Shown piece by piece: positions 22,240-37,607 of a stretch of 64,000 nucleotides of DNA (position 1 is its first letter; the number at the start of each line of letters is the position of its first letter). The DNA is from Arthrobacter sp. Edens01 (GTDB lineage: Bacteria; Actinomycetota; Actinomycetes; Actinomycetales; Micrococcaceae). The stretch is taken from assembly GCF_001307035.1 (NCBI RefSeq), contig NZ_LKIU01000002.1, forward strand, positions 231,088 through 295,087, in the 5' to 3' direction. The notes below the pieces were generated by a model, which saw only the letters and a list, made by a program, of their open reading frames with translations, was not told where the DNA came from and searched no databases. The position numbers were made by a program, and so were the translations under genes.

Positions 22240-22260
22240 CCTCCACCTCACCTCACCTCC

Positions 22261-22320
22261 ATCGAGATCGCAGAAACTGCCCGTTAGAAGCTTCTAACGG
22301 GCAGTTTCTGTCATCTCGTT
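22261..22320. repeat. 60-bp palindromic repeat, copy 1
   Basis: Two 30-base arms meeting at AAGCTT with no spacer; 27 of 30 positions pair. The left arm opens with ATCGAGATCGCAGAAACTGC, a 20-base block shared with the copies at 33777 and 37548 except at position 9. It lies 21 bases after paaZ and 24 before the end of the convergent tetR gene. It may act as a two-way terminator but has no T run. Confidence 0.85.
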
Positions 22321-22344
22321 TGGGGGGGAAGAAAGGGAACGGGA

Positions 22345-22980
22345 TCAGGGCTTGCCGTGCAGGCCGTCGAACATCATTGAAATAATGTCGTCGGCGAGCT
22401 TCTCCGCGCTCAGCGAGCCGCCTGGCTTGTACCACTCAACGATCGAGTTGATCGTTCCGAAAAGCAGGCGGGTAGTGGTCCGGGGATCGATGTCGCTGCG
22501 CAGTGACCCTTCGGAGCGGGCGGCGTCTACGAGCTCCGCCACGCGGCGGTCGAACTGGCGGCGGCGCTCCATGGCGTCACGCTCGACTTCAGTGTTGCCG
22601 CGCAGCCGCAGGAGCAGGGTGACGAACGGCAGCCGCTCGGTCAGGACTTTGATGGTGCCCCGGAGCACGAACTCGAGCCGGGCGTCGGCCGGACCGGAGG
22701 AAGCCTGCGGGTCGTCCAGTATGCCTTCGAGGCCGCCCAGGGCGTTTTCGAGCGCAAGGCGCAGCAGGTCGCCCTTGGACGGAACGTGGTGATAGATCGC
22801 GGACTTGGTGATGCCCAGATTCTCCGCGAGGATGCCCATCGACGTCGCTTCGTAGCCGTGACGGTTAAACACGTCAACGGCTATGTTCAGCACGGTCTGC
22901 TGGTCATAGCCGGGCCGCCCCCTGCGGGTGCCGTTGGCGCCGGAGGGAGAGGAAGTCGCGGAACTCGTTGGACTAGGCAT
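22345..22980 (-). CDS. paaR: TetR-family repressor of the phenylacetate genes
   Basis: Regulator of 211 residues. The N-terminus is Ser/Thr rich, then the helix-turn-helix covers about residues 35-75 (GYEATSMGILAENLGITKSA, then IYHHVPSKGDLL). The C-terminal ligand domain resembles TetR regulators of CoA-thioester pathways. It lies downstream of paaK on the same strand, and the window holds a set of like operators before the paa genes, so it is probably the phenylacetyl-CoA-sensing repressor, the PaaR counterpart of actinobacteria. ATG 22980 is used; a start 39 bases further up would lie inside the inverted repeat. The symbol is by role and context. Confidence 0.82.
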   Translation of the reverse strand: MPSPTSSATSSPSGANGTRRGRPGYDQQTVLNIAVDVFNRHGYEATSMGILAENLGITKSAIYHHVPSKGDLLRLALENALGGLEGILDDPQASSGPADARLEFVLRGTIKVLTERLPFVTLLLRLRGNTEVERDAMERRRQFDRRVAELVDAARSEGSLRSDIDPRTTTRLLFGTINSIVEWYKPGGSLSAEKLADDIISMMFDGLHGKP

Positions 22981-22989
22981 CTGGATATT

Positions 22990-23011
22990 TTCGCATGATC
23001 GTTCGGTTGGC
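22990..23011 (-). promoter_or_regulatory. Degenerate PaaR-type operator before the tetR gene
   Basis: The core GATCGTTCGGT shares CG-N2-CGGT with the other sites, but only about half of the fixed positions match. It lies 10 bases upstream of the regulator start and runs into the left arm of the inverted repeat at 23001-23036. Autorepression is the inferred role. Confidence 0.4.
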
Positions 23012-23036
23012 CGGGACACGTCCCGGCCAACCGAAC
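23001..23036. other. Perfect 17+17 bp inverted repeat between paaK and paaR
   Basis: The arms GTTCGGTTGGCCGGGAC (23001-23017) and GTCCCGGCCAACCGAAC (23020-23036) are exact reverse complements around two bases. It starts 14 bases after the paaK stop and ends up 20 bases before the regulator ATG. As RNA it would be a strong hairpin without a U run, a possible paaK terminator or processing site. Both outer ends carry the operator half GTTCGGTT. Confidence 0.8.
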
Positions 23037-23050
23037 ACTTTCTGCGGCTG

Positions 23051-24394
23051 TTAGGCCGGCTTGTTTTCCTGCTTGCGCAGGTCGTAGATCCGGCGCAGCT
23101 TGCCGCTGGAACGGGCCAGTGAACCGGGCTCCACCACGTGGATGGCGCAGGAGGATCCGATGTGGATCTTGATCTGGCTCTTCAGCTCAGCGGCGGCCTT
23201 GACGCACTCGTCAGCCGAAGACTCGGCGCGGCGCTCGATCTTTACGGCCAGCTCGTCCATACGGTCCGGTCGGGTGATTTCGAGCTGGAAGTGCGGGCTG
23301 AGGGCTGGGATCCGCAGGGCGATCTCCTCGATCTGGCTCGGGAAGAGGTTCACGCCGCGCAGGATGATCATGTCGTCATTGCGGCCGGTGATGCGGCCCA
23401 TGCGGCGCATGCCCGGACGTGCCGTGCCGGGCAGCAGACGGGTCAGGTCGTGCGTGCGGTAGCGGATGATCGGCAGTGCTTCCTTGGTCAGGGACGTGAA
23501 GACCAGTTCGCCGTGCTCACCGTCGTCCAGGACCTTGGTGTCATCGAACGGATCGATGATCTCCGGACGGAAGTGGTCCTCCCAGATGTGGGCGCCGTCC
23601 TTGGTTTCAACGCATTCCCCGGCTACGCCCGGGCCCATGACCTCGGAGAGGCCATAGATGTCGCAGGCGTCGATGTCCATCATCTGCTCAAGCTCATGCC
23701 GCATTTCCTCAGTCCACGGCTCGGCGCCCAGGACGGCGTTCTTCAGCGAGGTGGAGCGCGGATCGATCCCGGCGCGCTTCATGGCATCGGCAATGGTCAG
23801 CAGATAGGTGGGAGTAGCCAGGATGGTGTCCGGCTGGAAGTCCTGGATCAGCTGGATCTGCCGTTCGGTCTGGCCGCCGGACATCGGAATGACCGTGCAG
23901 CCCAGCTTCTCGGCGCCGAAGTGGGCGCCCAGGCCGCCGGTGAAGAGGCCGTAGCCGTAGGCGTTGTGGACCTTGTAGTTGGACTTCACTCCGGAGGCAC
24001 GCAGTGAGCGGGCCACCAGGGTGCCCCAGCGGTCAAGGTCGCCCTTGGTGTAGCCGACGACGGTCGGACGGCCGGTGGTCCCGGAGGATGCGTGGATGCG
24101 GGACACCTCGTCCATCGGCACAGCGAACATGCCAAACGGGTAGCTCTGGCGCAGGTCTTCCTTGGTCGTGTACGGGAACTTGGCCAGATCCGAGAGTTCC
24201 TTGAGATCGTCCGGGTGGACACCGGCGTCGTCGAATTTCTTCGTGTACAGCGGCACGCGGTCATAGGCGTAGCGGACCGTCTCCTTGAGGCGGGTGAGCT
24301 GCAGGGCCTCGATCTGATCCCGGCTCATGAGCTCCTCGGCGTCGAGGGTGGCGGGATCTGCTGCGGTGGCCTTGATTGCGGAGGCGGTATTCAT
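23051..24394 (-). CDS. paaK: Phenylacetate-CoA ligase
   Basis: Adenylate-forming ligase of 447 residues that activates phenylacetate to phenylacetyl-CoA with ATP, the entry step of the pathway. The AMP-binding loop is HASSGTTGRPTVVGYTKGD (about residue 100), with DIYGLSEVMGPGVAGE and the C-terminal hinge GRNDDMIILRGVNLFPSQIE. The length matches PaaK of other bacteria. Start ATG 24394 follows AAAGG; a 120-residue extension upstream is rejected as it overlaps paaI and has no family sequence. It follows paaI by 94 bases and is probably transcribed from the paaI promoter. Confidence 0.95.
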   Translation of the reverse strand: MNTASAIKATAADPATLDAEELMSRDQIEALQLTRLKETVRYAYDRVPLYTKKFDDAGVHPDDLKELSDLAKFPYTTKEDLRQSYPFGMFAVPMDEVSRIHASSGTTGRPTVVGYTKGDLDRWGTLVARSLRASGVKSNYKVHNAYGYGLFTGGLGAHFGAEKLGCTVIPMSGGQTERQIQLIQDFQPDTILATPTYLLTIADAMKRAGIDPRSTSLKNAVLGAEPWTEEMRHELEQMMDIDACDIYGLSEVMGPGVAGECVETKDGAHIWEDHFRPEIIDPFDDTKVLDDGEHGELVFTSLTKEALPIIRYRTHDLTRLLPGTARPGMRRMGRITGRNDDMIILRGVNLFPSQIEEIALRIPALSPHFQLEITRPDRMDELAVKIERRAESSADECVKAAAELKSQIKIHIGSSCAIHVVEPGSLARSSGKLRRIYDLRKQENKPA

Positions 24395-24488
24395 TGCGTA
24401 GAACCTTTGGGAGAGGGGTAGGGCTTGATTGTGCAGTGTTGGGAAAGAAAGTGGAAGTGCGTAACCCGGTGCGGGCGGAAGGGCCGGT

Positions 24489-24965
24489 TCAGGACCGGCG
24501 GGCCGGATTCGGAATGGTGCGTGAGCGGCCCCTGAATTCAGCAACGACGCGCGTCGCGCCGTCCGGAGACTCGGCGGTGACTTCGATGTCGTACACGCCG
24601 CTGCGGCCTGCCGCTGCACGGCGGCTGGCTTCGGCCCGAAGCTTATCGCCGGAACGGGCTGAAGAGATGAAGTTGATGTCGGCTCCGGAAGCCACGGTGA
24701 TGGTCTCCATGTTTGCCAGCGAGTCTGCGCCGGCCGGATTGCACGCAAGGGCAAATGCGGTGTCCGCGAAGGCGAAAACCATGCCGCCGTGCGCGATCGA
24801 AAACCCGTTCAGCATCTCCGGACGCAGATCCATGGTGATGACTGCCTCGCCGTCAGCGAGGTGCTCTACCTTAATTCCGAGCCATTCCGAAGTGGCATCG
24901 TGTTCCAGGATGGGATGCGCGGGGTTCGTTTCGCGAACCGGTGCGGTGACGCCGTAGTCAGCCAT
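24489..24965 (-). CDS. paaI: Hydroxyphenylacetyl-CoA thioesterase, hotdog fold
   Basis: Thioesterase of 158 residues. PaaI-type enzymes hydrolyse stalled ring-hydroxylated or epoxidised phenylacetyl-CoA intermediates, freeing CoA and limiting toxicity. The hotdog core includes NGFSIAHGGMVFAFADTAFA, with the HGG block and the Asp of the PaaI family, and SARSGDKLRAEA. ATG 24965 has GAGGGCATCC upstream; the in-frame opening above it runs through the operator and promoter and is rejected. It heads the minus-strand unit paaI-paaK-paaR. Confidence 0.92.
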   Translation of the reverse strand: MADYGVTAPVRETNPAHPILEHDATSEWLGIKVEHLADGEAVITMDLRPEMLNGFSIAHGGMVFAFADTAFALACNPAGADSLANMETITVASGADINFISSARSGDKLRAEASRRAAAGRSGVYDIEVTAESPDGATRVVAEFRGRSRTIPNPARRS

Positions 24966-24983
24966 GGATGCCCTCACTTTTTT

Positions 24984-25031
24984 CTTTACCGAATGTTCAT
25001 TAGGTAATCCTGTGAGCGTTATCACTGTCAA
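24984..25031 (-). promoter_or_regulatory. paaI promoter with overlapping PaaR-type operator
   Basis: On the minus strand TTGACA (25026-25031) and TTACCT (25002-25007) are 18 bases apart and form a good promoter. The operator-like palindrome at 24984-25005 (TTACCGAATG facing CATTAGGTAA) covers the -10 and lies 19 bases from the ATG. Its inner core departs from the paaZ site, so affinity may differ. Confidence 0.72.
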
Positions 25032-25115
25032 GTTGAAGCAGTCTCATGCGGGTGTGTGACACCGGGGGCCGGCCGTAATACTTGGCGTTCCCAGCCCCCG
25101 CAAAGGCTCATGGTC

Positions 25116-25121
25116 TAACCT
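25116..25121 (+). promoter_or_regulatory. -10 box TAACCT of a leaderless promoter
   Basis: TAACCT is followed by GACAAA and then GTG at 25128. The six-base gap places the transcript start on the initiation codon, and it decides GTG 25128 over the adjacent ATG at 25131. Confidence 0.58.
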
Positions 25122-25127
25122 GACAAA

Positions 25128-25922
25128 GTGATGTTTGCCACAGCCGCACCGGGAGTGCTGCAGCCCAAGTCCTCGCTCTTACCCGAATGGCTGGATCCCC
25201 AGGTCTTCCTCTCCGACCCCGCCGTGGGCCCCTGGGTAGTCCTGCTGATCTGCGGAATCGTCTTCGTGGAAACGGGCCTGCTCATCGGGTTTTTCCTCCC
25301 CGGGGATTCCCTGCTCTTCACCGCAGGTCTCCTGGTAGCCACAGGTGCCATGCAGATCAACATTTGGGTGCTGATCCTGCTGATTGCCCTCTGCGCTTTC
25401 GCCGGTGACCAGCTGGGCTACTACATAGGCCGCAAGGCGGGACCCGTGGTCTTCAACAGACCCGAATCCAGGTTCTTCCACCAGGACAACGTTCGCCGGG
25501 CCGAGGCATTCTTTGCCAGGCACGGTGGCAAAGCAGTGGTCCTCGCCCGCTTCATCCCGGTGATCCGGACCTTCACGCCGGTAGTCGCCGGCGTCGGCCG
25601 GATGCATTACGCAACCTTTATCGCCTACAACGCCATCGGCGGGGCCTTCTGGGCGCTGAGCGTCACGCTGCTGGGGTACATTCTGGGCGACCGCGTGCCG
25701 TTCGTACGGGACAACCTGGACCTGATCTTCCTCGGTGTTATCGCCTTGACGCTGATCTTTGTGGTTGCAGGGCTGTTCCGCCCGGGCAAGCGGCAGCGCG
25801 CTGCGGGCAAAGGCCCCGCAGGGAAGGAAGCAGGGAAGGAAGCAGGGAAGGAAGCGCGTCCGCGGATCCGTCCAGTGCCGCGGCCCCGCCCGAGAGCGCC
25901 GGAGGCCGGCGGGATCGACTAG
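25128..25922 (+). CDS. DedA-family (SNARE-associated) membrane protein
   Basis: Integral membrane protein of 264 residues. Family signatures are ETGLLIGFFLPGDSLLFTAG near residue 45 and ARFIPVIRTFTPVVAG near residue 145, with four to five hydrophobic segments. DedA proteins act as lipid-carrier flippases or translocases, for example of undecaprenyl phosphate or phosphatidylethanolamine, and support envelope and proton-motive-force homeostasis. The substrate here is not known. The C-terminal tail is cytoplasmic, basic and proline-rich and contains a threefold AGKE repeat encoded by 12-bp units. Confidence 0.9.
   Translation: MMFATAAPGVLQPKSSLLPEWLDPQVFLSDPAVGPWVVLLICGIVFVETGLLIGFFLPGDSLLFTAGLLVATGAMQINIWVLILLIALCAFAGDQLGYYIGRKAGPVVFNRPESRFFHQDNVRRAEAFFARHGGKAVVLARFIPVIRTFTPVVAGVGRMHYATFIAYNAIGGAFWALSVTLLGYILGDRVPFVRDNLDLIFLGVIALTLIFVVAGLFRPGKRQRAAGKGPAGKEAGKEAGKEARPRIRPVPRPRPRAPEAGGID
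25818..25853 (+). repeat. Three perfect 12-bp tandem repeats in the DedA tail
   Basis: GCAGGGAAGGAA occurs three times in a row (25818, 25830, 25842), encoding AGKE-type units. As 12 is a multiple of three, unit gain or loss changes tail length without a frameshift. Confidence 0.9.
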
Positions 25923-25948
25923 CCGGACCTGCCCGGACCAGACATACC

Positions 25949-25982
25949 GGAAGCCGGGTACCCCGCGGGGTACCCGGCTTCC
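25949..25982. terminator. Perfect 34-bp palindrome between convergent genes
   Basis: GGAAGCCGGGTACCCCG (25949-25965) is directly followed by its exact reverse complement. It lies between the stops of the DedA gene (+) and the oligopeptidase gene (-), so a bidirectional terminator is likely. No T run is present; the flanks are GC-rich. Confidence 0.78.
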
Positions 25983-25997
25983 TGCGTCTCCTGAGAG

Positions 25998-28178
25998 TTA
26001 CCGGGCCGCAGCCGGAGAAACCACTCCAGGCAGCAGGTCCCGGGCGCCCAGCGCCGAGAGTACAAAGGCATAGTCCCAGGCGCGGTCCTTCCAGGCTTCG
26101 TAACGGCCGGATGCGCCGCCGTGGCCGCCGTCCATCTCGATTTTCATCACGATCGGCTCGGAACCGGTGGTGGTTTCGCGCAGCTTCGCGACCCACTTGG
26201 CCGGTTCTACGTAAAGCACCCGGGTGTCGTTGAAACTGGTCACCGCTGCTATGCGCGGGTAGTCCACGGCGCGGATGTTCTCATACGGGCTGTACTCGCT
26301 CATGTAGCGGTAAACCTCGGGATCGGTGATCGGATTGCCCCACTCCTCCCACTCCAGAGCTGAAAGCGGCAGGTCGGGATCCAGGATGGAGGTCAGTGCA
26401 TCAACGAACGGTACCTGGGCCAGGATCGCCCGGTACTTTTCCGGTGCCAGGTTCGCGACGGCGCCCATCAGCAGTCCGCCCGCGGAGCCGCCCATGGCCG
26501 CGATCCGCTCCGGGTCCACCCATCCTGAGGCAGCCATGTGGTCGGTCGCTGCCACGAAGTCGGTGAACGTGTTCTTTTTGTTCAGCTTCTTGCCCTGGTC
26601 GTACCAGGCGCGGCCCATCTCGCCGCCGCCGCGGATGTGCGCCACCACAAAGACGACGCCGCGGTCCAGGAGGGAGAGCCGGGCAATGTTAAACGCCGGG
26701 TCCATGGAGATTTCGTAGCTGCCGTACGCGTAGACCAGTGCGGGGTTGGAACCGTCCTGTGCCACTTCCCGGCGGCGGAGCACCGAGAGCGGGATGCGGG
26801 TGCCGTCCGCCGCCGTCGCCCAGTCCCGCTCGGCAACGTAGTCGGAGCGGTTGTACCCGCCGCGGACGGGGGTTTCCTTCCGCAGCTCCAGCTCGCCCGT
26901 GGCCAGCACATAGTCATAGACGCGCGGGGGAGTGAGGTAGGACGTGTAGCTGAGCCGGATGATCGGGGAGTCGTATTCAGCGTTGGTCAGGCCTGCCGTG
27001 TAAAGCTGCTCATCGAACGCGGGCTCGGCCGGCGCCTGCTGCTCCACAGTGCCAATCCCGGCCAGCGGCAGGATCTGCACCCGCTCCGTGGTGTCCTTGC
27101 GGACCGAAACCAGGACGTGCGTGGAGGTGACGGATACCCCGTTGACCCGGACGGCGTCGTCGTGGGCCACCACGGTGTGCCACTGCTGCTCCTGCAGCGG
27201 CTTGGCGAACTCCGGCTCCGCGACCAGGGAGACCATCGAGTTCAGTGCGTCCTTGTTGTGAGTGATCAGGTACTGGCGCACACCGTCCCCGGTAAACGGT
27301 TCGACTTCGTACAGGATCCGCTCGCTGCGCGGGATCAGGGTACGCACGGTATCCGACGGATCATCGAAGTCCAGGACACGGTATTCGCTGTACTCGGAAC
27401 AGCTGATGCCGATCAGGAGCTGCCTGCGGTCGGCGGAAAGGTCGAAGCCTGTCCACATGGCGACGTCGTCCTCCTGGTAGATCACGGCGTCTTGGCTGAC
27501 ATCCGTGCCCAGGGTGTGAGCCTTGATCTGGTAGGGGCGCCACGAATCGTCTACGACGGTGTAGAACACCCGGGTTCCGTCCGGGGAGAAAGCGAGGGAG
27601 TAGAAGACGTTGGAAACGACGTCGGGCAGCAGCTCACCGGTGCGCAGGTCCTTGATGCGAAGGGTGAACCGCTCATCTCCTGCGTTGTCCTCGCAGTACG
27701 CCAGCAGGTTGCCGTCCTCGGTGACGGCCAGGCCGCCGAGCGCGAAGAAGGGCTTGCCCTCAGCTTCGGCATTGCCGTCAATGAGGATCTGCTCTCCGGG
27801 GACCGGAACGCCGGGTTCGACGACGGGCGGTGTCCAGTCCGCGTGCAGATCACCGGTGTCCTGGGCTGCAGTGCGGCAGTGGATCGCGTACTGCTGGCCT
27901 TCCTCGGTGCGGGTGTAGTACCACCAGCCTCGCTTGCGGGCAGGAACGGAAAGATCCGTTTCAACGGTGCGGGCCTTGATCTCGTCGAAGATCTGCTGCC
28001 TCAGCGGTTCCTGATCCGCAGTGACGGCCTCGGTGTAGGCATTCTCCGCATTGAGATGCTCAACGACCTCGGGATTTTCCTTCTCCCTCAGCCACTCATA
28101 GTCGTCGGTAAACGTTTCACCGTGATGGGTGCGCTCGACGGGGACTTTTTTGGCAGCCGGGGGAACAGGTGTAGTCAT
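25998..28178 (-). CDS. ptrB: S9-family oligopeptidase B
   Basis: Cytosolic serine peptidase of 726 residues, prolyl-oligopeptidase family, cutting short peptides after basic residues. The N-terminal part begins VERTHHGETFTDDYEWLREK and forms a seven-bladed propeller with repeats such as LAFSPDGTRVFYTVVDDS. The C-terminal alpha/beta hydrolase has the catalytic Ser in AAMGGSAGGLLMG and the His in DGGHGGASGRYE. The stretch EEWGNPITDPEVYRYM, with acidic residues near the active site, favours oligopeptidase B over prolyl oligopeptidase. The start at 28178 is set by a TATATT box seven bases upstream; an in-frame extension of 57 residues has no family sequence. Confidence 0.9.
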   Translation of the reverse strand: MTTPVPPAAKKVPVERTHHGETFTDDYEWLREKENPEVVEHLNAENAYTEAVTADQEPLRQQIFDEIKARTVETDLSVPARKRGWWYYTRTEEGQQYAIHCRTAAQDTGDLHADWTPPVVEPGVPVPGEQILIDGNAEAEGKPFFALGGLAVTEDGNLLAYCEDNAGDERFTLRIKDLRTGELLPDVVSNVFYSLAFSPDGTRVFYTVVDDSWRPYQIKAHTLGTDVSQDAVIYQEDDVAMWTGFDLSADRRQLLIGISCSEYSEYRVLDFDDPSDTVRTLIPRSERILYEVEPFTGDGVRQYLITHNKDALNSMVSLVAEPEFAKPLQEQQWHTVVAHDDAVRVNGVSVTSTHVLVSVRKDTTERVQILPLAGIGTVEQQAPAEPAFDEQLYTAGLTNAEYDSPIIRLSYTSYLTPPRVYDYVLATGELELRKETPVRGGYNRSDYVAERDWATAADGTRIPLSVLRRREVAQDGSNPALVYAYGSYEISMDPAFNIARLSLLDRGVVFVVAHIRGGGEMGRAWYDQGKKLNKKNTFTDFVAATDHMAASGWVDPERIAAMGGSAGGLLMGAVANLAPEKYRAILAQVPFVDALTSILDPDLPLSALEWEEWGNPITDPEVYRYMSEYSPYENIRAVDYPRIAAVTSFNDTRVLYVEPAKWVAKLRETTTGSEPIVMKIEMDGGHGGASGRYEAWKDRAWDYAFVLSALGARDLLPGVVSPAAAR

Positions 28179-28185
28179 GGTCCCG

Positions 28186-28191
28186 AATATA
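28186..28191 (-). promoter_or_regulatory. -10 box TATATT of a leaderless promoter
   Basis: On the minus strand TATATT is followed by seven bases (CGGGACC) and the ATG at 28178. No Shine-Dalgarno sequence of normal spacing is present. Confidence 0.55.
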
Positions 28192-28278
28192 TCGAGCCGG
28201 ACCGGCGGCGGCGACGGGCCGCGCCCCTTTATGCTTCGGGCGGAGCGGGCAGCGCCCAGGATCCCCGGCGCGGGTGGG

Positions 28279-28836
28279 CTAGCGTCCCAGCAGGATCCAG
28301 GCGCTGAACATTCCGGCAGCGGCAAAGAACACCCAGTTCGCCAAGACAAGGATAAGAGTGTGCGCGAAGGGCCGGGGGCCGGTGCTGGGCACCACGGTCA
28401 CGGGATCTTCGGTGGCCGGTCCGCGGCGGAACTGGGACCACAGCGACGTGGCCAGCAGCAGGCCGCCGCCGGCCAGGGCTACCGGAACGGCCGGAAGGGT
28501 TAACAGGACTGTGCTGCCCGCGGTCCAGTACAGGAGGATGTGAGCCAGGACGACGCCGGCCAGGACGGCCAGCGGGCGGCCGGGCTTTCCCGCGAGGGCC
28601 GCGGGCAGATACCGGGGTGCGGCACCGGCAGCGAGAAGCAGGGTCAGGACTACGGCGAGACCGCTTGCGGTGATCTTCAGGATGCCGCCGCTTGAGGCAA
28701 CGGCGGCGGCAACGGCGCAGAAGCCGAGGAGTCCCAGCAGGATTGGTACCAGCAGGTGGGCGGCCAGGGCGGGGGCGCTGCCGTTCCTGAACCCCTCCGG
28801 CACACGGACGCGCTCCGGCGTTCCCCTGCTGGCCAT
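28279..28836 (-). CDS. Conserved hypothetical integral membrane protein
   Basis: Protein of 185 residues with about five hydrophobic segments (for example LLVPILLGLLGFCAVAAAVA, LAVLAGVVLAHILLYW and LILVLANWVFFAAAGMFSAW) and a hydrophilic N-terminal stretch of about 20 residues. No family is recognised. The ATG has a strong GGAGGAAACGT site. It is divergent from paaA and lies 100 bases upstream of the oligopeptidase start on the same strand, but that gene has its own promoter. Confidence 0.7.
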   Translation of the reverse strand: MASRGTPERVRVPEGFRNGSAPALAAHLLVPILLGLLGFCAVAAAVASSGGILKITASGLAVVLTLLLAAGAAPRYLPAALAGKPGRPLAVLAGVVLAHILLYWTAGSTVLLTLPAVPVALAGGGLLLATSLWSQFRRGPATEDPVTVVPSTGPRPFAHTLILVLANWVFFAAAGMFSAWILLGR

Positions 28837-28954
28837 ACGTTTCCTCCTGGATGCGGCTGTCCCTTCAAAGGTATCCGGTGTCAGCGTGGCCGCCTGACAC
28901 CGCTACGGGCATGGGGCGGTGTGTCCAGGGCGGCCGCAAAGAACCCGCTCCGCC

Positions 28955-29003
28955 TTGACGTGCCATCGCTCACACGCATATCCTGAACGAACGGTCGGTA
29001 ATT
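28955..29003 (+). promoter_or_regulatory. paaA promoter with overlapping PaaR-type operator
   Basis: TTGACG (28955-28960), an 18-base spacer and TATCCT (28979-28984) make a near-consensus promoter. The 22-bp operator at 28982-29003, with core AACGAACGGTCGGT, overlaps the -10 and matches 13 of 16 fixed PaaR-motif positions, as recalled from Corynebacterium. The long leader (about 75 bases) precedes the paaA ATG at 29066. Confidence 0.8.
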
Positions 29004-29065
29004 ATTGGCCGAACGACTTCCGCGGAGCTGTCCGCGGCCACGTGGAAAACAGTGAGGTGACATCT

Positions 29066-30061: not shown

Positions 30062-30063
30062 GC

Positions 30064-30426
30064 ATGGTTTCCGGTTCCACAACGGGCGATGACGGCACGA
30101 AGACGGCGGCAACGTCCGGTTCGGTGGCGCCCGACACGGGCGTAAACGCGGCCTGGCCGCTCTGGGAAGTGTTTGTCCGCTCCTCCCGCGGACTCTCCCA
30201 CGTCCACGCAGGTTCGCTGCACGCGCCCGACGCCGACATGGCGCTGCGCAACGCACGCGACCTATACACCCGGCGCAACGAAGGCGTTTCGCTCTGGGTG
30301 GTTCCGGCCGAGGCGATCATCTCCTCCGACCCCGATGCCAAGGGCCAGTTCTTCGAGTCCCCGCAGGGCAAGGACTACCGGCACGCAACGTACTACCGCA
30401 AGTCCGAAGGGGTGAAGCACCTGTGA
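30064..30426 (+). CDS. paaB: 1,2-phenylacetyl-CoA epoxidase subunit B
   Basis: Small subunit (120 residues) of the epoxidase complex that bridges the PaaAC heterodimers. The core is typical: WPLWEVFVRSSRGLSHVHAG, DMALRNARDLYTRR and EGVSLWVVPAEAI. The N-terminus carries about 30 extra residues rich in Thr, Ser and Gly that E. coli PaaB lacks. Spacing to paaA is two bases, and the stop overlaps the GTG start of paaC. A start further upstream, inside paaA, is rejected. Confidence 0.93.
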   Translation: MVSGSTTGDDGTKTAATSGSVAPDTGVNAAWPLWEVFVRSSRGLSHVHAGSLHAPDADMALRNARDLYTRRNEGVSLWVVPAEAIISSDPDAKGQFFESPQGKDYRHATYYRKSEGVKHL

Positions 30427-31241
30427 ACACGGACAGCGCCACCCGCATCACCCCGGGCAACGCCCTCCGCCCGGAGGACATTGCAGCCTCTGATGCCAAG
30501 GCCCCCGAAGCCGTCGCGGAGTACGCGCTCCGCCTGGGCGACGACGCACTGATCCTGGCCCAGCGCCTGGGCTGGTGGGTTGCCCGGGCCCCGGAGCTGG
30601 AAGAGGACATTGCCCTTTCCAACATCGCCCTGGACCTGATTGGTCATGCCCGGTCCTTCCTCACCTACGCCGGCACTGCCTGGGACAAGACCGAGGATGA
30701 CCTGGCCTACTGGCGAGGTGAAGAGGAATACCGTTCCGCCCACATCGTGGAGCAGGAAAACGGCGACTTCGCCAAGACGATTGCCCGCCAGCTGGTGGTC
30801 TCCTTCTTCCAGTACGAGCTTTACACCGCCATGCTCTCCTCCAAGGACGAGACCCTGGCGGCCATCGCGGCCAAGGCCGTGAAGGAAGTCGACTACCACC
30901 GCGACCACAGCGCCCAGTGGGTGCTGCGCCTGGGCCAGGGAACCGAGGAATCACGCACCCGGATGATCCGCGCCCTGGAACTCATCTGGCCGTACGTGGG
31001 CGAGCTGTTCGAGGACGATGACCTGGTTCGCTCCCTCGACGGAATCGCCGTCGTGCCCTCCACGCTCCGCGCTGCCTTCGATGAGAAGGTCGGTGCCGTG
31101 CTGGCCGAAGCCGAGCTCGAAGCCCCAGAGGTGCAGCCCGCACCGGGCGGCGGACGCCGCGGCGAGCACAGCGAGTACCTCGGCTACATCCTGGCTGAGC
31201 TCCAGGTGCTGGCCCGCCAGCACCCCGGTGCAACCTGGTAA
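30423..31241 (+). CDS. paaC: 1,2-phenylacetyl-CoA epoxidase structural subunit C
   Basis: Ferritin-like structural subunit (272 residues) that pairs with PaaA in the oxygenase core but lacks a working di-iron site. Family blocks include GDDALILAQRLGWWVARAPE, EEDIALSNIALDLIGHARSF, and VKEVDYHRDHSAQWVLRLG. The start is GTG 30423 in a GTGA overlap with the paaB stop. The middle carries an FQYELYTAML segment typical of the family. Confidence 0.94.
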   Translation: MNTDSATRITPGNALRPEDIAASDAKAPEAVAEYALRLGDDALILAQRLGWWVARAPELEEDIALSNIALDLIGHARSFLTYAGTAWDKTEDDLAYWRGEEEYRSAHIVEQENGDFAKTIARQLVVSFFQYELYTAMLSSKDETLAAIAAKAVKEVDYHRDHSAQWVLRLGQGTEESRTRMIRALELIWPYVGELFEDDDLVRSLDGIAVVPSTLRAAFDEKVGAVLAEAELEAPEVQPAPGGGRRGEHSEYLGYILAELQVLARQHPGATW

Positions 31242-31246
31242 CAGCT

Positions 31247-31792
31247 ATGAACGAGACTGAGGCAGCACCCCCCGTCGACGCCGCAGCCAGTACGCAGCTG
31301 CGACCCGCGGACCCCGCATCAGCGGCCGCCTGGGACGTAGCGGCGACAGTCTGCGACCCGGAAATCCCGGTCCTGACCATTGAGGACCTGGGTGTTCTGC
31401 GGGCCGTTCAGGTCCAGCAGGACAACTCGGTGCGGGTGGCCATCACCCCCACTTACTCCGGCTGCCCCGCCATGGACGCGATCCGCGACGACGTCACCGC
31501 CGCGCTCGTTGCCGCCGGCTACGGACCGGTCCGCGTGGACCTGGTCCTGGCCCCGGCCTGGACCACGGACTGGATGAGCGAATCCGGCAAGACCAAACTC
31601 AACGAGTACGGCATCGCCCCGCCCACCGGCCGGGCCGCTGCCGGACCCGTCCGGCTGGGCCTTAGCGTCAAGTGCCCCCAGTGCTCCTCACTCAACACGC
31701 GTGAAATGACACGCTTTGGCTCTACTTCCTGCAAGGCGCTGTACGTCTGCCGCGACTGCCAGGAACCCTTCGACTACTTCAAGGTGCTCTAA
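31247..31792 (+). CDS. paaD: Phenylacetate degradation protein PaaD, metal-sulfur assembly factor
   Basis: Accessory protein of 181 residues needed for epoxidase maturation, related to the MIP18/SufT family. The N-terminal domain has VCDPEIPVLTIEDLGVLRAV and TPTYSGCPAMDAIRDDV with its conserved Cys. A C-terminal zinc-ribbon-like tail shows CPQCSSLNT and CRDCQEPF. Presumed to assist iron-sulfur delivery to PaaE or iron loading of PaaA. Five bases separate it from paaC and three from paaE. Confidence 0.93.
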   Translation: MNETEAAPPVDAAASTQLRPADPASAAAWDVAATVCDPEIPVLTIEDLGVLRAVQVQQDNSVRVAITPTYSGCPAMDAIRDDVTAALVAAGYGPVRVDLVLAPAWTTDWMSESGKTKLNEYGIAPPTGRAAAGPVRLGLSVKCPQCSSLNTREMTRFGSTSCKALYVCRDCQEPFDYFKVL

Positions 31793-31795
31793 ACC

Positions 31796-32956
31796 ATGAC
31801 AACCTCCACCACCGAGGCGGGCGCAGCTCCCGCCTCGCGCCGCACCGCCTTCCACCCGCTGACGGTCAGTGCTGTCCGCCGGCTCACCGAAGACGCCATC
31901 GAAGTCACCTTCGCGGTTCCCGAAGAGCTGACCGGTTCCTTCGATTACCTGCCCGGCCAGTACGTTGCCCTGCGCACCACGCTGGACGGCGCGGAAATCC
32001 GCCGCAGCTACTCCATCTGCGCGGAGCCGAAGCCCGGTGAAATCCGGGTCGCCATTAAGCGCGACCTCGGCGGCAAGTTCTCCACCTGGGCCAATGAAAA
32101 CCTGAAGGCCGGGGACGTCCTGGACGTCATGAGCCCCACGGGCGGTTTCATCTCCAAGCACCCGATGACGGCGCTGAACCACCCCGAAGACATCGACGTA
32201 GCGGACGAGAACGTTTTCGTTGCCGTCGCTGCCGGTTCCGGGATCACCCCGGTGATCTCCATTGCCCGCACCGTGCTGGCTGCCTCGGAGAACGTGCGCT
32301 TCGACCTGGTGTACGCCAACAAGGCGGCGATGGACGTCATGTTCCTCGAAGAGCTGGCGGACCTGAAGGACAAGTACCCGGCACGTTTCGCCGTGCACCA
32401 CGTGCTCTCCCGCGAGCAGCGCATCTCCCCGCTGCTTTCCGGCCGGATCGACGCTGACAAGCTGTCTGCACTGATCGAATCCGTTCTGCCGACCCGCGAC
32501 GTTGACGAGTGGTTCCTCTGCGGCCCGTTCGAACTGGTGCAGCTGTGCCGGGACACCCTGGCAGAGCGCGGCGTGGACTCGGAAAAGGTTCGCTTTGAGC
32601 TGTTCACCACTGGCCAGCCGGGCAAGCCGGAAGGCCAGATCGGCCGCCCCATCCAGGTGGACCCGTCAGCGGACAACTACGAGATCAGCTTCCGCCTGGA
32701 CGGACTGCAGGGCAAGGTTGCCAGCCCCACGCACGCCCGCGAATCGATCCTCAATGCAGCCCTGCGCGTGCGTCCGGATGTTCCGTTCGCCTGTGCCGGC
32801 GGCGTGTGCGGCACCTGCCGCGCCAAGGTTGTCTCCGGCACCGTGGAGATGGAAGAGAACTACGCACTGGAACCGGATGAAATCGAAAAGGGTTACATCC
32901 TGACCTGCCAGAGCCGTCCTACCAGCCCCGAAGTCACCGTCGACTACGACGCCTAG
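31796..32956 (+). CDS. paaE: 1,2-phenylacetyl-CoA epoxidase reductase subunit E
   Basis: Reductase of 386 residues passing electrons from NADPH to the di-iron centre. It has an FAD-binding domain (IRRSYSICAEP, about residue 80), an NAD(P)-binding domain (AAGSGITPVISIARTVL), and a C-terminal plant-type [2Fe-2S] ferredoxin domain with CAGGVCGTCRAKVVSG and a final Cys in YILTCQSRP. Fifth gene of the paaABCDE-G operon. Confidence 0.95.
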   Translation: MTTSTTEAGAAPASRRTAFHPLTVSAVRRLTEDAIEVTFAVPEELTGSFDYLPGQYVALRTTLDGAEIRRSYSICAEPKPGEIRVAIKRDLGGKFSTWANENLKAGDVLDVMSPTGGFISKHPMTALNHPEDIDVADENVFVAVAAGSGITPVISIARTVLAASENVRFDLVYANKAAMDVMFLEELADLKDKYPARFAVHHVLSREQRISPLLSGRIDADKLSALIESVLPTRDVDEWFLCGPFELVQLCRDTLAERGVDSEKVRFELFTTGQPGKPEGQIGRPIQVDPSADNYEISFRLDGLQGKVASPTHARESILNAALRVRPDVPFACAGGVCGTCRAKVVSGTVEMEENYALEPDEIEKGYILTCQSRPTSPEVTVDYDA

Positions 32957-32969
32957 GAGCGCGGAACCC

Positions 32970-33764
32970 ATGAGCGAACAGAACCAGCCTGAGTCCATGG
33001 TCGAACTCAGCTTTTCCGACGGCGTCGCAGAGGTTGTGCTGAACGCCCCCTACAAGCTGAACTCGCTGGACGAGCAGGCCCTCGCGGACCTGTCCAAGGC
33101 TTACGACGACGCCGCTGCCGCCGGCGTGCGGGCACTGCTGCTGCGCGGCGAGGGCCGTGCATTCTGCGCCGGACGCGACATCTCCGGCGTCGTCCCGGCC
33201 GAAGACGACGCCTATGCCTACCTGGGGGACCTGGTTACGCCGCTGCTGAAGAAGATGGCTGCCTTCCCGGCACCCACCTTTGCCGCCGCGCACGGCGCCT
33301 GCCTCGGCGTCGGGCTGGGCCTGCTTGTGGCGACGGACGTGGTCTACGTGGCGGACAACGCGAAGATCGGCTCGCCGTTCGCGAACCTGGGGGCAACCCT
33401 GGATTCGGGCGGACACTGGCTCTTCACCGAGCGGCTGGGCGCCCACCGCACGCTGGACCTGATCTACACGGCAGACCTGATGAGCGGAGCTGAAGCCGTA
33501 GGGGCCGGCCTGTTCAGCCGGGTGTTCCCGGCCGACGAGCTGCTGGACTCCACCCGTGCCACTGTGGCCCGCGTGGCCTCCGGTGCAACTGGAGCCTTCC
33601 GTGCTTCCAAGGAACTCGTCGCACAGATCCGCGATGCCCGGCTGGGGCTATGGGATTCTGTCGAAGACGAGAATAAGGCGCAGGGCGTGCTTTGCGGCAC
33701 CGAGGACTATGCCGAAGGCTTCGCCGCCTTCAAGGAGAAGCGCAAGCCGGTATTCAAGGGCTAG
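32970..33764 (+). CDS. paaG: Ring 1,2-epoxyphenylacetyl-CoA isomerase (crotonase family)
   Basis: Crotonase-fold enzyme of 264 residues expected to isomerise ring-1,2-epoxyphenylacetyl-CoA to oxepin-CoA. Compared with the enzyme at 14291 it keeps PaaG-like blocks: GRAFCAGRDIS, the Asp in ATLDSGGHWLF (aligned with the catalytic Asp of PaaG), and the C-terminal DYAEGFAAFKEKRKPVF. Last gene of the operon, 13 bases after paaE. A 60-bp palindrome follows after 12 bases. Confidence 0.87.
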   Translation: MSEQNQPESMVELSFSDGVAEVVLNAPYKLNSLDEQALADLSKAYDDAAAAGVRALLLRGEGRAFCAGRDISGVVPAEDDAYAYLGDLVTPLLKKMAAFPAPTFAAAHGACLGVGLGLLVATDVVYVADNAKIGSPFANLGATLDSGGHWLFTERLGAHRTLDLIYTADLMSGAEAVGAGLFSRVFPADELLDSTRATVARVASGATGAFRASKELVAQIRDARLGLWDSVEDENKAQGVLCGTEDYAEGFAAFKEKRKPVFKG

Positions 33765-33776
33765 CTTTCCCCTCTC

Positions 33777-33836
33777 ATCGAGATAGCAGAAACTGCACGA
33801 TACAGCCCTGTAACGTGCAGTTTCTGCCATCTCGAT
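33777..33836. repeat. 60-bp palindromic repeat, copy 2
   Basis: Two 30-base arms, 27 of 30 positions pairing. The outer left block is ATCGAGATAGCAGAAACTGC, as in the other copies; the inner half differs (ACGATACAG against CTGTAACGT), with several changes compensated in the opposite arm. It lies 12 bases after paaG at the end of the paaABCDE-G operon. Confidence 0.85.
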
Positions 33837-33934
33837 GGGAACGGGGAGCGGATATTCGACAGGGCGTCGAAACTTCGGGAGAATTGCAGGGCCGGATGCG
33901 ATCCCGCCCGGCACACGGTGCCTGAGGAGGACCG

Positions 33935-34543
33935 ATGACAGCGCGTGCCGCACGCTTGGTGCGCGGCTGGGCCGGAGCATTCGCGGCCACAGCCGTGGCC
34001 GCTGCGTCGCATGTGCTTGGCGGCGGTGCCGCTCCCGAACCGGCCCTCGTGCTGTTCTGCCTGGCAGTTTCGGGAATGGTCAGCTGCCTGCTGGCCGGAC
34101 GCGGGCTCTCCCTGCCCCGGCTTTCCACCGCCGTCGTCTTCAGCCAGGGGCTGTTCCACCTCATTTTCAGCTTCGGCTCTGCCCCCGCAGCCGTCGTCGC
34201 AGGTTCCGGCCATGCCCACCACTCAGGGCCCTCCCTGACTGAGATCGGCACTGCCGCCGCGGCGTCGTCGGCCCCTGTCCACGGACTCATGATGTGGCTG
34301 AGCCACGCACTGGCCGCGGCCGCCACGGTGTGGATCGTGGCCCATGGCGAGCGGACCCTAATCCGCATCCTCGAGGCACTTGGTGTCCGGCCCGGTGCCC
34401 TGCTGCCGTTGTTCCGTCCCGCGCACCTTCCCCGCCCCATCGCTTCGGCCCTGGCCGTCCGTCCCCTGGGGCTGCGCAACCTTGGCATTCCGCTCCTGAC
34501 GCTCCGGCACCGGGGCCCACCTGCTGTATTCGTGTCCAGCTAG
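33935..34543 (+). CDS. Hypothetical membrane protein, copper-cluster neighbour
   Basis: Protein of 202 residues with about four hydrophobic segments (GWAGAFAATAVAAASHVLGG, ALVLFCLAVSGMVSCLLAG, TAVVFSQGLFHLIFSFG, MMWLSHALAAAATVWIVAHG). A short His-containing loop GSGHAHHSG lies before the last membrane segment. No family is recognised. A GAGGAGG site stands seven bases before the ATG. It precedes copC by 55 bases on the same strand, so a part in copper handling is inferred from position and the His-rich loop. Confidence 0.7.
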   Translation: MTARAARLVRGWAGAFAATAVAAASHVLGGGAAPEPALVLFCLAVSGMVSCLLAGRGLSLPRLSTAVVFSQGLFHLIFSFGSAPAAVVAGSGHAHHSGPSLTEIGTAAAASSAPVHGLMMWLSHALAAAATVWIVAHGERTLIRILEALGVRPGALLPLFRPAHLPRPIASALAVRPLGLRNLGIPLLTLRHRGPPAVFVSS

Positions 34544-34598
34544 GCGCACCCGCGCACTCCGCACGAATCCCAGTTCCTTCCCGGAACGGAAAGCAGTT

Positions 34599-35234
34599 AT
34601 GCCTACCACTTTTTACCGCCAGGCCCGCACCCGTGCCTCGCTCCTTGCCGCAGCTCTCCTCGCAGCCTTCGCAGCGGTTCTCTTCCTTGCAGCACCGGCA
34701 CACGCGCACGATGAACTCATTTCATCCAATCCGGCCGACGGCGCCGTGCTGGAAGAAGCACCGTCCGAAATCGAACTGGTCTTCAGCTCCGCGCTGATGG
34801 ATCTGGGCAACCAGGTGATCGTTGCTGACGCTGCCGGCAACAACGTTGCCGAGTCGGAGCCGGTGCTAAACCGGGAAACACTGGTTCAGGCAGTTCCAGC
34901 ACTCGAAGCGGGGGACTACCAGGTGAACTGGCGTGCGGTTTCCAGCGATGGGCACCCGATCACCGGCACCTTCAGCTTCACTGTGAACGCTCCGGCCGGA
35001 GCGGAGGAAAGCACCGCTCCGGCGGCTTCCGAATCCGCTTCCATCCCGGCAGCCAGCGAGCCCGCTCCCAGCGCTTCAGCAGACCCGGCAGAAGCAGAAC
35101 CGGCAGCGGAGGAGTCAGATGTGGCATCCCACCTGCCGTGGGCCCTCGCCGGTGCCGGCGTAGGAGCGGCTGCAGCCCTCGCTGCCTGGGCGATCGTTGT
35201 CCAGATGCAAAAGCGCCGCGGAGATCACGCCTAG
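34599..35234 (+). CDS. copC: CopC-domain copper-binding protein, membrane anchored
   Basis: Exported protein of 211 residues. The signal peptide ends at AHA before HDELISSNPADGAVL, so the mature protein starts with His, the copper-binding N-terminal His of CopC proteins; a second ligand His is in SSDGHPITGTFSFTV. The CopC beta-barrel covers about residues 38-130. A long Ala/Pro/Ser/Glu-rich linker then leads to a C-terminal membrane helix (WALAGAGVGAAAALAAWAIV) and a basic end. It binds Cu(II) outside the membrane; with the next two genes it suggests copper delivery rather than only resistance. Confidence 0.9.
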   Translation: MPTTFYRQARTRASLLAAALLAAFAAVLFLAAPAHAHDELISSNPADGAVLEEAPSEIELVFSSALMDLGNQVIVADAAGNNVAESEPVLNRETLVQAVPALEAGDYQVNWRAVSSDGHPITGTFSFTVNAPAGAEESTAPAASESASIPAASEPAPSASADPAEAEPAAEESDVASHLPWALAGAGVGAAAALAAWAIVVQMQKRRGDHA

Positions 35235-35353
35235 CTTCCAGCCGCCCCGCCGCGTCATGCTGCGGCACGCTTCTTTGGCCTGCCCAAATGCAGTGCCCCC
35301 GTCTTCTCTTCCGTGCCCGCGGGCGCGGAACACACCTTTGGAGTACCTGAAAC

Positions 35354-35932
35354 ATGAAAAAACTGACCCTCGCCGCCGCTGTCCTTGCGCTCTCCGCAGC
35401 CGGACTGGCCGGCTGCGCCGCAACAGACACCCCGGCTGCCGAAACCGCACAGACTGCCGAGCAGGCAGCCGCGCTGTCCGTAACGGGAGCCTGGGCGAAG
35501 GCTGCCGACGCCGGCGGTATGACCGGCGCCTTCGGCACGCTGGAGAACTCCGGCACTGAGGACCTCACCGTCGTCTCTGCCAGCACGCCCGCCGCTACCG
35601 CGGTTGAGCTGCATGAAGTTGCCATGGACGACGACGGCGCCATGGTCATGCGCGAAATCGAAGGCGGCTTTGTGGTCCCCGCCGGAGGTGAGTACCTGCT
35701 CGAACCCGGGGCCAGCCACCTGATGCTCATGGGCCTGCAGGACGGCCTGCTCGCCGGAGACACCGTAACCATCACCCTGGAACTGGAAGACGGCTCGACG
35801 GTGGAGATGGACGCGACCACCAAGGACTTTGCCGGCGCCAATGAAAGCTATGGAGACATCAGCGGCGCTGACGGCCACGGGACTGAGGGAGACCACGGTT
35901 CCACCGAAACCCACGGACACGCGGACAACTGA
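35354..35932 (+). CDS. PCu(A)C-type copper chaperone lipoprotein
   Basis: Lipoprotein of 192 residues with lipobox LAGC at about residue 20. The PCu(A)C domain holds the Cu(I) site of His and Met residues: LHEVAMDDDGAMVMREIEGG, then GASHLMLMGL. The C-terminus is His-rich (GHGTEGDHGSTETHGHADN), probably a further metal-binding tail. Such proteins pass copper to oxidases; the Streptomyces homologue ECuC feeds Sco and a DyP peroxidase. The stop overlaps the peroxidase ATG by one base. Confidence 0.9.
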   Translation: MKKLTLAAAVLALSAAGLAGCAATDTPAAETAQTAEQAAALSVTGAWAKAADAGGMTGAFGTLENSGTEDLTVVSASTPAATAVELHEVAMDDDGAMVMREIEGGFVVPAGGEYLLEPGASHLMLMGLQDGLLAGDTVTITLELEDGSTVEMDATTKDFAGANESYGDISGADGHGTEGDHGSTETHGHADN

Positions 35933-37170
35933 TGGCCCAGGACCAAGCACCCGGCGGCGTCGGAAGGCGCAGGCTGCTGTTTGGGGGAGCTGCGGCCGGT
36001 CTGGGAGCAGTGGCTGCCGCCGGCGGGCACCTTCTGGGCAGCCGCAGCACGCCTGATCTGGAGCGGACAGGCCTGGATGAAGCCGGCAGCAACGGACAGG
36101 AAACAGTTCCGTTCTACGGACTTCACCAGGCCGGAATCGAAACTCCTCCCGCGGCCTACGCTGCCTTTGTGGCCCTGGACCTCCGCGAGGGCATCGGCCG
36201 CGACCGGATCCAGTCCTGGCTGCGCCTGCTCACAGACGACGCCGCGGCGCTGACCCAGGGCCAGCCGGCCTTGGCCGACACGGAACCCGAGCTGGCAGTG
36301 CATCCCGCCCGGCTGACCGTGACCATCGGTTTCGGCCGCAGCCTGGTAGCCGCGGCAGCCCCCGACAGAGTGCCTGCCTGGCTCGGCCCGCTTCCGGCGT
36401 TCGGCATCGACGCCCTGCAGGACCGCTGGAACGGCGGTGACCTGGTGCTGCAGCTCTGCGCCGATGATCCGCTGACCCTGGCCCACGCCCAGCGGATGCT
36501 GCTGAAGGACAGCCGGTCTTTCGCTTCCGTGCGCTGGGTGCAGACCGGATTCCGGCGTGCCTACGGCAGCGAACCCGCGGGCACTACCATGCGCAACCAT
36601 TTCGGACAGGTAGACGGCAGCGCGAATGCGCTGCCGGGGACCCCGGAGTTCGAGCGCGTGGTCTGGGGTGACGCCGAGCTTCCGGCATGGCTGGAGGGCG
36701 GCACATCCATGGTCATTCGCCGCATCGCCATGAACCTGGACACCTGGGACGAGCTGGACCGGAGGGGACGGGAAGAATCGGTGGGCCGCAGGCTCTCCGA
36801 CGGCGCCCCGCTCACCGGGGAAGCCGAACATGACGAACCGGATTTTGACGCCGTTACCGGTCTTGGTTTCAAGGTCATTCCGGAGTACGCGCACATGCGG
36901 CGGGCCAGGCCGGACAACCCGCGTCAGCGGATCTACCGGCGCGGCTACAACTATGACGACGCCCCGGAGCCGGGAGGGTCCGTCTCCAATGCCGGGCAGA
37001 TTTTTGTGGCGTTCCAGGCTGACGTGACTGAACAGTTCGTGCCGATCCAGCAGCGCCTGGACCAGCTGGACCTGCTCAATGAGTGGACGACGCCGATTGG
37101 CTCAGCGGTCTTTGCCGTGCCGCCGGGTGCGCGGAAGGGCGGTTTTGTGGGGGAGGAGCTCTTCACATAG
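35932..37170 (+). CDS. Tat-exported Dyp-type peroxidase
   Basis: Haem peroxidase of 412 residues. The twin-arginine signal is GRRRLLFGGAAAGLGAVAAA. The GXXDG motif with distal Asp is in FGQVDGSAN, and AHMRRARPDN provides the probable proximal His. It resembles the EfeB/DtpA group. In Streptomyces lividans a Tat-exported DyP (DtpA) is encoded with the copper chaperone ECuC and a CopC-domain protein, close to this order. Role: probably an extracytoplasmic peroxidase tied to copper trafficking or haem use. Translational coupling with the chaperone is indicated by TGATG. Confidence 0.92.
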   Translation: MAQDQAPGGVGRRRLLFGGAAAGLGAVAAAGGHLLGSRSTPDLERTGLDEAGSNGQETVPFYGLHQAGIETPPAAYAAFVALDLREGIGRDRIQSWLRLLTDDAAALTQGQPALADTEPELAVHPARLTVTIGFGRSLVAAAAPDRVPAWLGPLPAFGIDALQDRWNGGDLVLQLCADDPLTLAHAQRMLLKDSRSFASVRWVQTGFRRAYGSEPAGTTMRNHFGQVDGSANALPGTPEFERVVWGDAELPAWLEGGTSMVIRRIAMNLDTWDELDRRGREESVGRRLSDGAPLTGEAEHDEPDFDAVTGLGFKVIPEYAHMRRARPDNPRQRIYRRGYNYDDAPEPGGSVSNAGQIFVAFQADVTEQFVPIQQRLDQLDLLNEWTTPIGSAVFAVPPGARKGGFVGEELFT

Positions 37171-37260
37171 GGATTGCTCCGCTGCAGGTGGCCCCGCTAG
37201 GTTGGGAATGTCAGTATGCTGACTAACGTTCCCCTGGCGGGGCATCACCGAAAGGCAACA

Positions 37261-37527
37261 ATGACGCAGAGCTACGATCCGAATAATGATCCGGCCAATC
37301 CGGACAAGCCCAAGGAAGCTGACAACGCTGCTGAGGCCCAGAAAGGCCCGGGCACGCAGGAGGGCACCGGAAACCATGCCGGAAGCGGTGAGAAGGGCCG
37401 CCGGGTCAACCCTGACCCGGCAGAAGGCAACATCACCGGACTGGAGCCCGGCGGCGGGGTGCCGCCGGGTGAGACTCCTCCTGCGGAGGACCAGATGAGC
37501 ATGGACCAGGGACACGACGAAGACTAG
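37261..37527 (+). CDS. Small disordered hydrophilic protein
   Basis: Protein of 88 residues, very rich in Pro, Gly, Asn, Asp and Glu ([18 protein letters not shown] at the start, [13 protein letters not shown] at the end), with no hydrophobic core. It is predicted to be unfolded. GAAAGG lies six bases before the ATG; an upstream in-frame ATG at 37216 would add 15 residues but lacks a good site. It resembles small stress-related proteins of unknown role in actinobacteria. It is followed after 20 bases by the third 60-bp palindrome. Confidence 0.6.
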
Positions 37528-37547
37528 GCGCGTCCGTCCCTTCTTTA

Positions 37548-37607
37548 ATCGAGATTGCAGAAACTGCCCGTTTGGAGCTCCAAACGGGCAGTTTCTGCAA
37601 TCGCGAT
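37548..37607. repeat. 60-bp palindromic repeat, copy 3
   Basis: The most regular copy: 29 of 30 arm positions pair, meeting at GAGCTC. The left block is ATCGAGATTGCAGAAACTGC; the only mismatch is at arm position 5. It lies between convergent stops, 20 bases after the small protein gene and 6 before the Lrp stop. Confidence 0.87.

Follow-up and report, generated by a model that had tools for sequence, protein, structure and literature searches.

A family of 60-bp palindromes at gene ends in Arthrobacter

What is a palindrome of exactly 60 bp doing at the end of a gene, and how does it come to stand in nearly the same sequence at unrelated places? The question arises from a stretch of 64,000 nt of Arthrobacter sp. 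Edens01 (the window; its genome is G000 in element names), where three palindromes lie at 22261-22320 (copy 1), 33777-33836 (copy 2) and 37548-37607 (copy 3). The original prediction described them as near-perfect, with 27, 27 and 29 of 30 positions paired, as sharing a left block ATCGAGATxGCAGAAACTGC in which position 9 alone varies, and as lying 12-21 bases after a stop codon. All of this holds: the pairing is as claimed (in copy 2 the two central bases are unpaired), the block is common to the three copies, and the distances from the stop codon measure 21, 12 and 20 nt for copies 1, 2 and 3. The right arms are more variable than the left; read on the minus strand, that of copy 1 is AACGAGATGACAGAAACTGC and that of copy 3 is ATCGCGATTGCAGAAACTGC. 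With up to three mismatches allowed, the left block has six matches in the window against a mean of 0.01 after shuffling, and the RNA folds of the copies have z values of -8.7 to -11. The three are members of a family with fixed length, gene-end position and retention across species, in which some arm changes occur in lock-step and in place of which a sixth relative (G204) has ordinary hairpins at roughly half of the sites. Judging from sequence comparison, we give an even chance to the reading that these are dispersed palindromes, similar to repetitive extragenic palindromic (REP) elements, which act as two-way gene-end hairpins in place of ordinary terminators.

Searching the whole genome with the block, as had been proposed, uncovered many copies beyond the three in unrelated places, which bears out the suggestion of a dispersed REP-like repeat family. 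A 17-mer, with at most one mismatch, matched 30 times in forward and 25 times in reverse orientation, whereas the backwards pattern matched in neither. At least 38 copies of what we call type A could be aligned (35 are 60 bp long and three 61 bp); two more copies have CAGAAACGGC arms, and a second type, B, has three copies in a 400-kb tract of this genome. The outer sequence of these copies is strongly conserved, whereas the inner 20 bp are variable yet mostly paired. The covariation score is 0.221 as compared to 0.096 for shuffled sequence (0 of 500 shuffles as high), with 93 versus 40 cells changed on both sides. None of the 38 type-A copies lies inside a called gene, the largest overlap with a gene end being 10 nt; 37 adjoin a stop codon, at most 24 nt from the nearest one and in some cases with an overlap of as much as 10 nt, and the contexts are 22 convergent, 15 tandem and one divergent. 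A diverged copy at G000:C2:114458, the site of which is orthologous to G032:750415, shows CAGAAA changed to CAAGAA in both arms.

At different sites of the own genome there are two pairs of copies whose inner 54-mers agree at 54 of 54 positions, one pair being oppositely oriented; one of the identical pairs also shares an asymmetric arm difference and has near borders that are alike at 13 of 15 and 10 of 15 positions. Beyond 15 nt the flanks of the two pairs match at only 8-19 of 45 positions. Identical inner 54-mers within largely unrelated outer flanks exclude local duplication, and the units were thus apparently copied without their genes.

Both types share the frame CGARANNNCA–N36–TGNNNTYTCG, and on the common 30-bp arm type A reads CGAGATNRCAGAAASTGC and type B CGAGAGGCCAGTTACGGC, with intermediate forms at G117:746043 and G032:664053. 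Typing by positions 14-15 of each arm was applied to 100 elements, namely 70 from the tracts described below and 30 further own-genome copies, and gave 81 AA, 16 BB, two with both arms intermediate and one A/intermediate. By these positions none of the 100 combines an A arm with a B arm; outside them, one arm of G058:545323 is partly B-like. The length is tightly kept: when the frame was sought in six 400-kb tracts with an inner gap of 4-120 bp allowed, 60 of the 62 matches were exactly 60 bp. In the G312 tract a type-A copy appears to be one base shorter in each arm, that is, to carry a symmetric indel. The type-A core (CAGAAACTGCCCGTTTGG) is resembled by stems of ordinary hairpins, AGAAACCGCCCGTTTG or AGAACCGCCCGTTTGG, at G032:C5:540431 and in the G058 gap orthologous to G000:369546, and type A may have arisen by growth from such an ordinary terminator.

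The gene-end position was examined in the six syntenic 400-kb tracts. A scan gave 76 hits, from which six with a score below 22 or fewer than 20 pairs were dropped (G000:114458, G117:633395, G117:873936, G032:560447, G058:510927 and G204:779875), leaving 70 elements in five species, the own one and four relatives. Contexts were taken from gene calls by a script made for this analysis. The elements comprise 38 convergent, 31 tandem and one divergent case, as compared to 143, 588 and 275 among 1006 background gaps of at least 60 bp; the binomial p value for the convergent preference is 5e-15, in a test that treats orthologous copies as independent although they are not. Sixty-five of 69 elements lie within 40 nt of a stop codon (median 13). 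An element is present in 7-9 of the 31-39 convergent gaps per tract in the five species and in 0 of 41 in G204. Other hairpins in convergent gaps number 16-23 per tract (23 in G204), a tally that includes the diverged copy G000:114458 and the shortened type-A copy in G312. By eye these vary in length and have no common sequence, in agreement with the earlier remark that ordinary terminators share structure and not sequence. At G000:C2:321021 a type-B element is followed close by by an ordinary-looking hairpin (GAAAGCGGCCGGCCCC...GGGACCGGCCGCTTTC); some ends have both. Another ordinary hairpin lies in a convergent gap of the window at 60307-60346 and is 94% paired, the best of the window's other listed inverted repeats.

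The spacers between stop codon and element (n = 79) contain 58% C and 11% G, a skew of 0.67 as compared to about 0.12 in controls, and the mirror-image G-rich border is also found at tandem sites, where G makes up 50% of the adjoining 15 nt. That these borders extend the stem was rejected, own flanks pairing at 2.99 and swapped flanks at 3.24.

Mapping of orthology (in which G032:537280, by eye a type-A element at the G000:374478 site, was missed) assigned the 70 elements to 23 sites, 17 of which are seen in at least two species and 12 of which are occupied in four or all five, while the spacers at orthologous sites could not be aligned by eye. None of the 17 multi-species sites holds the element in G204. 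In eight of them there is an ordinary hairpin with a score of at least 11, several with A/T tails, a pattern which could be what substitution for ordinary terminators would look like. Such junctions, with an ordinary hairpin in one species and a repeated palindrome in its relatives, offer a natural experiment on gene-end evolution. Comparison of the inner core showed 15.1 of 16 positions identical between A-A orthologs versus 9.3 for non-orthologs, and 14.0 (6 pairs) versus 8.5 for B-B orthologs. For A-B orthologs the value is 10.1 (29 pairs) versus 8.6, with all seven sites at which this exchange occurs exceeding the background; as A-B orthologs share little core, the exchange mostly swaps the whole element. 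At G032:677504 a core asymmetry persists through the A-to-B change. Same-type orthologs differ in lock-step in both arms at 39 positions and not in lock-step at 189 (counted over species pairs).

If the family indeed supplies two-way gene-end hairpins, transcription from either side would give an RNA ending in a near-perfect stem with about 28 pairs at most, and this stem may stop RNA polymerase, block 3′-to-5′ decay, or do both. One 60-bp unit would then close the mRNAs from both genes of a convergent pair and replace the ordinary terminator. C-rich, G-poor spacers suit Rho, and the spacer preceding the element might help this factor, with the reservation that it is short and symmetric. New copies would come about when an element at one gene end is copied to another, and the symmetry of the arms may be repaired in part by template switching. 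Should the units stop or protect RNA in this way, a core function of gene expression has passed to a dispersed repeat in about one fifth of the convergent gaps examined.

With an intrinsic terminator the palindromes have in common a stable hairpin close to the gene end. Several observations weigh against the terminator reading. A U-rich tract does not follow the stem, the mean being 1.2-1.3 T per 8 nt after the 60-mer; the inner TTTCTG yields 4.9 T per 8 nt in type A, whereas type B, with 1.9, has no U-rich tail. On the sense strand of 43 tandem elements, G·U pairs number 37 and A·C mismatches 31. Wobble pairing as proof of selection on RNA was rejected for want of a clear excess, and with G·U barely above A·C, RNA pairing is not clearly the selected property. 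The two central positions are paired in 71% and 74% of cases, where composition predicts 51% and 47% (neighbours 83-87%), and the second of these, pair 30, at 74% versus 47%, is impossible in an RNA hairpin. Terminator function needs no fixed length, G204 has no strong hairpin at nine of the 17 shared sites, and at seven of the 12 well-filled sites some species have type A and others type B, which this reading leaves unexplained. With G·U hardly favoured and type B lacking a U-tract, plain intrinsic termination leaves part of the data unexplained.

The fixed length of 60 bp and the A/B exchange at fixed sites are the most interesting parts, and they are the unexplained ones. A wider reading, which we offer tentatively and regard as possible rather than probable, is that the palindromes form an undescribed class of 60-bp gene-end elements in Arthrobacter, with possible look-alikes elsewhere in the order. 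The frame CGARANNNCA would be held while the two arms of the palindromic interior are exchanged in step and the types swap at fixed sites. A specialised mechanism of copying or conversion would then be implied, one that recognises the ends, sets their spacing at 60 bp and puts these units in place of ordinary terminators. If an enzyme sets the 60-bp unit, this would be a REP-like system without a REP-associated tyrosine transposase (RAYT).

A related explanation treats the palindrome as a mobile, non-autonomous unit, similar to REP elements or to miniature inverted-repeat transposable elements (MITEs), both ends of which are read by an enzyme with a preference for gene ends or terminators, the hairpin role being a by-product. 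The exact 60-bp unit with its conserved outer frame and free interior fits this, as do the identical inner 54-mers at different sites and in opposite orientation, the differences in presence or absence among closely related species, and the exchange of A and B at one site. However, the Y1/RAYT transposase (PF01797) was found in 0 of 29 congeners, by a search which was positive in 5 of 14 known genomes as a control and did not extend to other transposase families. Target-site duplications were seen at 0 of 70 elements, a GTAG foot at only two, and the sites are strongly retained between orthologs. BLAST with window copy 3 gave no match in phages or plasmids, BLAST with an idealised type B none in plasmids, and a scan of viral contigs with the A/B pattern likewise none; 20 matches to a looser frame in viral contigs were rejected as copies since they are not palindromic (at best 10 of 20 free positions) and are attributed to chance. 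The absence of Y1/RAYT genes and target duplications, together with sites kept across species, argues for retention at gene ends more than for free transposition. Mobility is doubtful, and the suggestion in the original prediction that an enzyme of the host moves a small element is so far unsupported.

Less probable still is a site acting at the level of DNA, for gyrase, a nucleoid protein or cruciform formation, that handles supercoiling between converging genes; the BIMEs (bacterial interspersed mosaic elements) of E. coli are an analogue. The preference for convergent junctions would be expected of such a site, and the excess of central pairs where RNA cannot pair, the lack of a clear G-U preference and the symmetric C-rich/G-rich borders, present even where no gene converges, point the same way. 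Against it, 31 of the 70 elements are in tandem context and nearly all follow directly after a stop codon. The interior moreover varies in sequence and yet stays largely palindromic, which fits a hairpin better than the reading of a sequence.

Template switching during replication could maintain the symmetry of the arms, and is reported to fix stem pairing (PMC8794818). That it is the main cause of the symmetry, with little selection on structure, is less likely than any of the above: the 39 lock-step differences and the central pairing excess agree with it, but 189 changed positions in the same ortholog pairs are not in lock-step, and outer conservation, fixed length and gene-end position are left unexplained. 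A stretch in which the C-rich flank is duplicated perfectly in inverted orientation, which looks like a template-switch product and would favour this explanation, abuts the foot of element G032:750415 (G032:C5:750350-750475, centred on ATCGAGAT). The lock-step changes make the parts of selection and template switching in hairpin perfection directly testable. Finally, dimers of a DNA-uptake signal that serve as terminators, as in Neisseria and Pasteurellaceae, would also place a conserved word at gene ends in inverted pairs, but this can practically be dismissed, as every listed arm with at most one mismatch has a partner 37-38 bp away (that of the C4 arm being more diverged) and copies number tens, compared to the 1,000 or more given for uptake signals in PMC1852404.

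The spread among genomes depends on how the family is defined. The exact type-A core has 36 copies in the own genome, 55 in G032, 49 in G058, 48 in G117 and 19 in G312. Each of the other 24 congeners has 0-7, and six genomes of other genera have one match each. The core is present in 16 of 395 genomes of the family and 6 of 396 of the order, and is multi-copy in this genus only. The frame with a free interior occurs 74 times in G032, 58 in G058, 56 in G117, 46 in G312, 42 in the own genome and 24 in G223, and 1-9 times in 14 further congeners, so that 20 of 29 congeners have it. Distant congeners carry versions of their own, CGAGAAGGCACAAATTACCG in G131 and G159 and CGAAAGTGCAGTACTTACYG in G241. 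In other genera 17 genomes have 1-3 frame matches each and the order set adds five genomes, as compared to 6 of 395 genomes with one match each, none in this genus, for the reversed frame. The interiors of the frame matches outside the genus are palindromic at P < 0.001 (p 0.3 per position) in 5 of 13 genomes inspected among these 22 and not in the other eight, and some of these matches may be ordinary hairpins. R1 candidates with E values of 1e-6 or better were found in 22 genomes of 11 other genera, with at most 17 matches per genome (both strands counted). Among the at least 100 matching stretches listed, one is from outside Arthrobacter, from a Rhodoglobus metagenome-assembled genome; on a contig of this genome a 61-bp palindrome of the same frame lies at 4952-5012. 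Any reach of the family beyond the genus is tentative. G204 has a single frame match, outside the compared tract. By a one-locus tree of 28 of the 29 congeners, the low-copy genomes G194, G204 and G100 may have lost the family (node support 0.67).

In the window, convergent gene pairs enclose copies 1 and 3, where the second stop codon lies 24 and 6 nt, respectively, past the far side, whereas copy 2 is in tandem context; all three are of type A. Copy 1 follows a plus-strand gene for a protein with aldehyde dehydrogenase and MaoC domains (20122-22239; PF00171, PF01575), which we take to be paaZ-like, after a C-rich, G-poor spacer (22240-22260, plus strand). The opposing TetR-family gene (22345-23019, minus strand; PF00440, PF17932) is separated from it by 22321-22344, a border that is G-rich on the plus strand and thus represents the C-rich spacer as seen from the minus-strand gene. 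Copy 2 lies 3′ of an enoyl-CoA hydratase gene (32970-33764, plus strand; PF00378) after a C-rich spacer (33765-33776, plus strand), and a G-rich stretch (33837-33851) abuts it on the 3′ side. Copy 3 lies between a gene for a DUF6480 protein (37216-37527, plus strand; PF20088), with a spacer at 37528-37547 (plus strand), and a converging Lrp/AsnC gene (37614-38135, minus strand), a locus which served for comparison of congeners. At the gathering score none of the three copies matches an Rfam family, the sole match in the window being a SAM-IV riboswitch elsewhere (18632-18764, minus strand, 49.8 bits).

How does the family relate to known systems? MITEs are dispersed, non-coding and have inverted arms; unlike them, the Arthrobacter palindromes have neither target duplications nor internal sequence, and no lone arms (at most one mismatch) that could bound a longer transposon are present in the own genome. 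Bidirectional intrinsic terminators likewise form a hairpin that closely follows the stop codon where genes converge, and differ in that the palindromes are conserved in sequence across sites, have a fixed length and symmetry up to the centre, and are followed by T-poor DNA. In agreement with the original prediction, which knew of no named family with this sequence, a literature search found no description, most subscription journals being outside its coverage; the row for Arthrobacter livingstonensis in a RepRanger table (PMC12306157) gives counts without sequences. The uptake-signal terminators of Neisseria and Pasteurellaceae are similar in that their gene-end hairpins are built from a single word in inverted copies (PMC1852404), whereas the Arthrobacter arms are all partnered; lone arms with at most one mismatch, which abundant single copies of such a signal would provide, were not listed for the own genome. 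REP elements, as presented in PMC3733652, are 20-40 bp long and have a tetranucleotide tag, GTAG or CGTC. Within 6 bp of the foot, GTAG/CTAC was found at 2 of 70 elements and CGTC/GACG at 12 of 70, and the Arthrobacter palindromes further differ from that account by their 60 bp, variable interior and lack of a Y1/RAYT gene. The same paper describes REPs, in likeness to the Arthrobacter copies, as multi-copy extragenic palindromes downstream of coding regions, mostly between convergent or unidirectional genes, and the CGTC REPs, like the Arthrobacter family, are apparently without a dedicated transposase (PMC3733652). With many extragenic palindromic copies per genome, the family is REP-like in the broad sense, centred on this genus and outside the RAYT-REP class.

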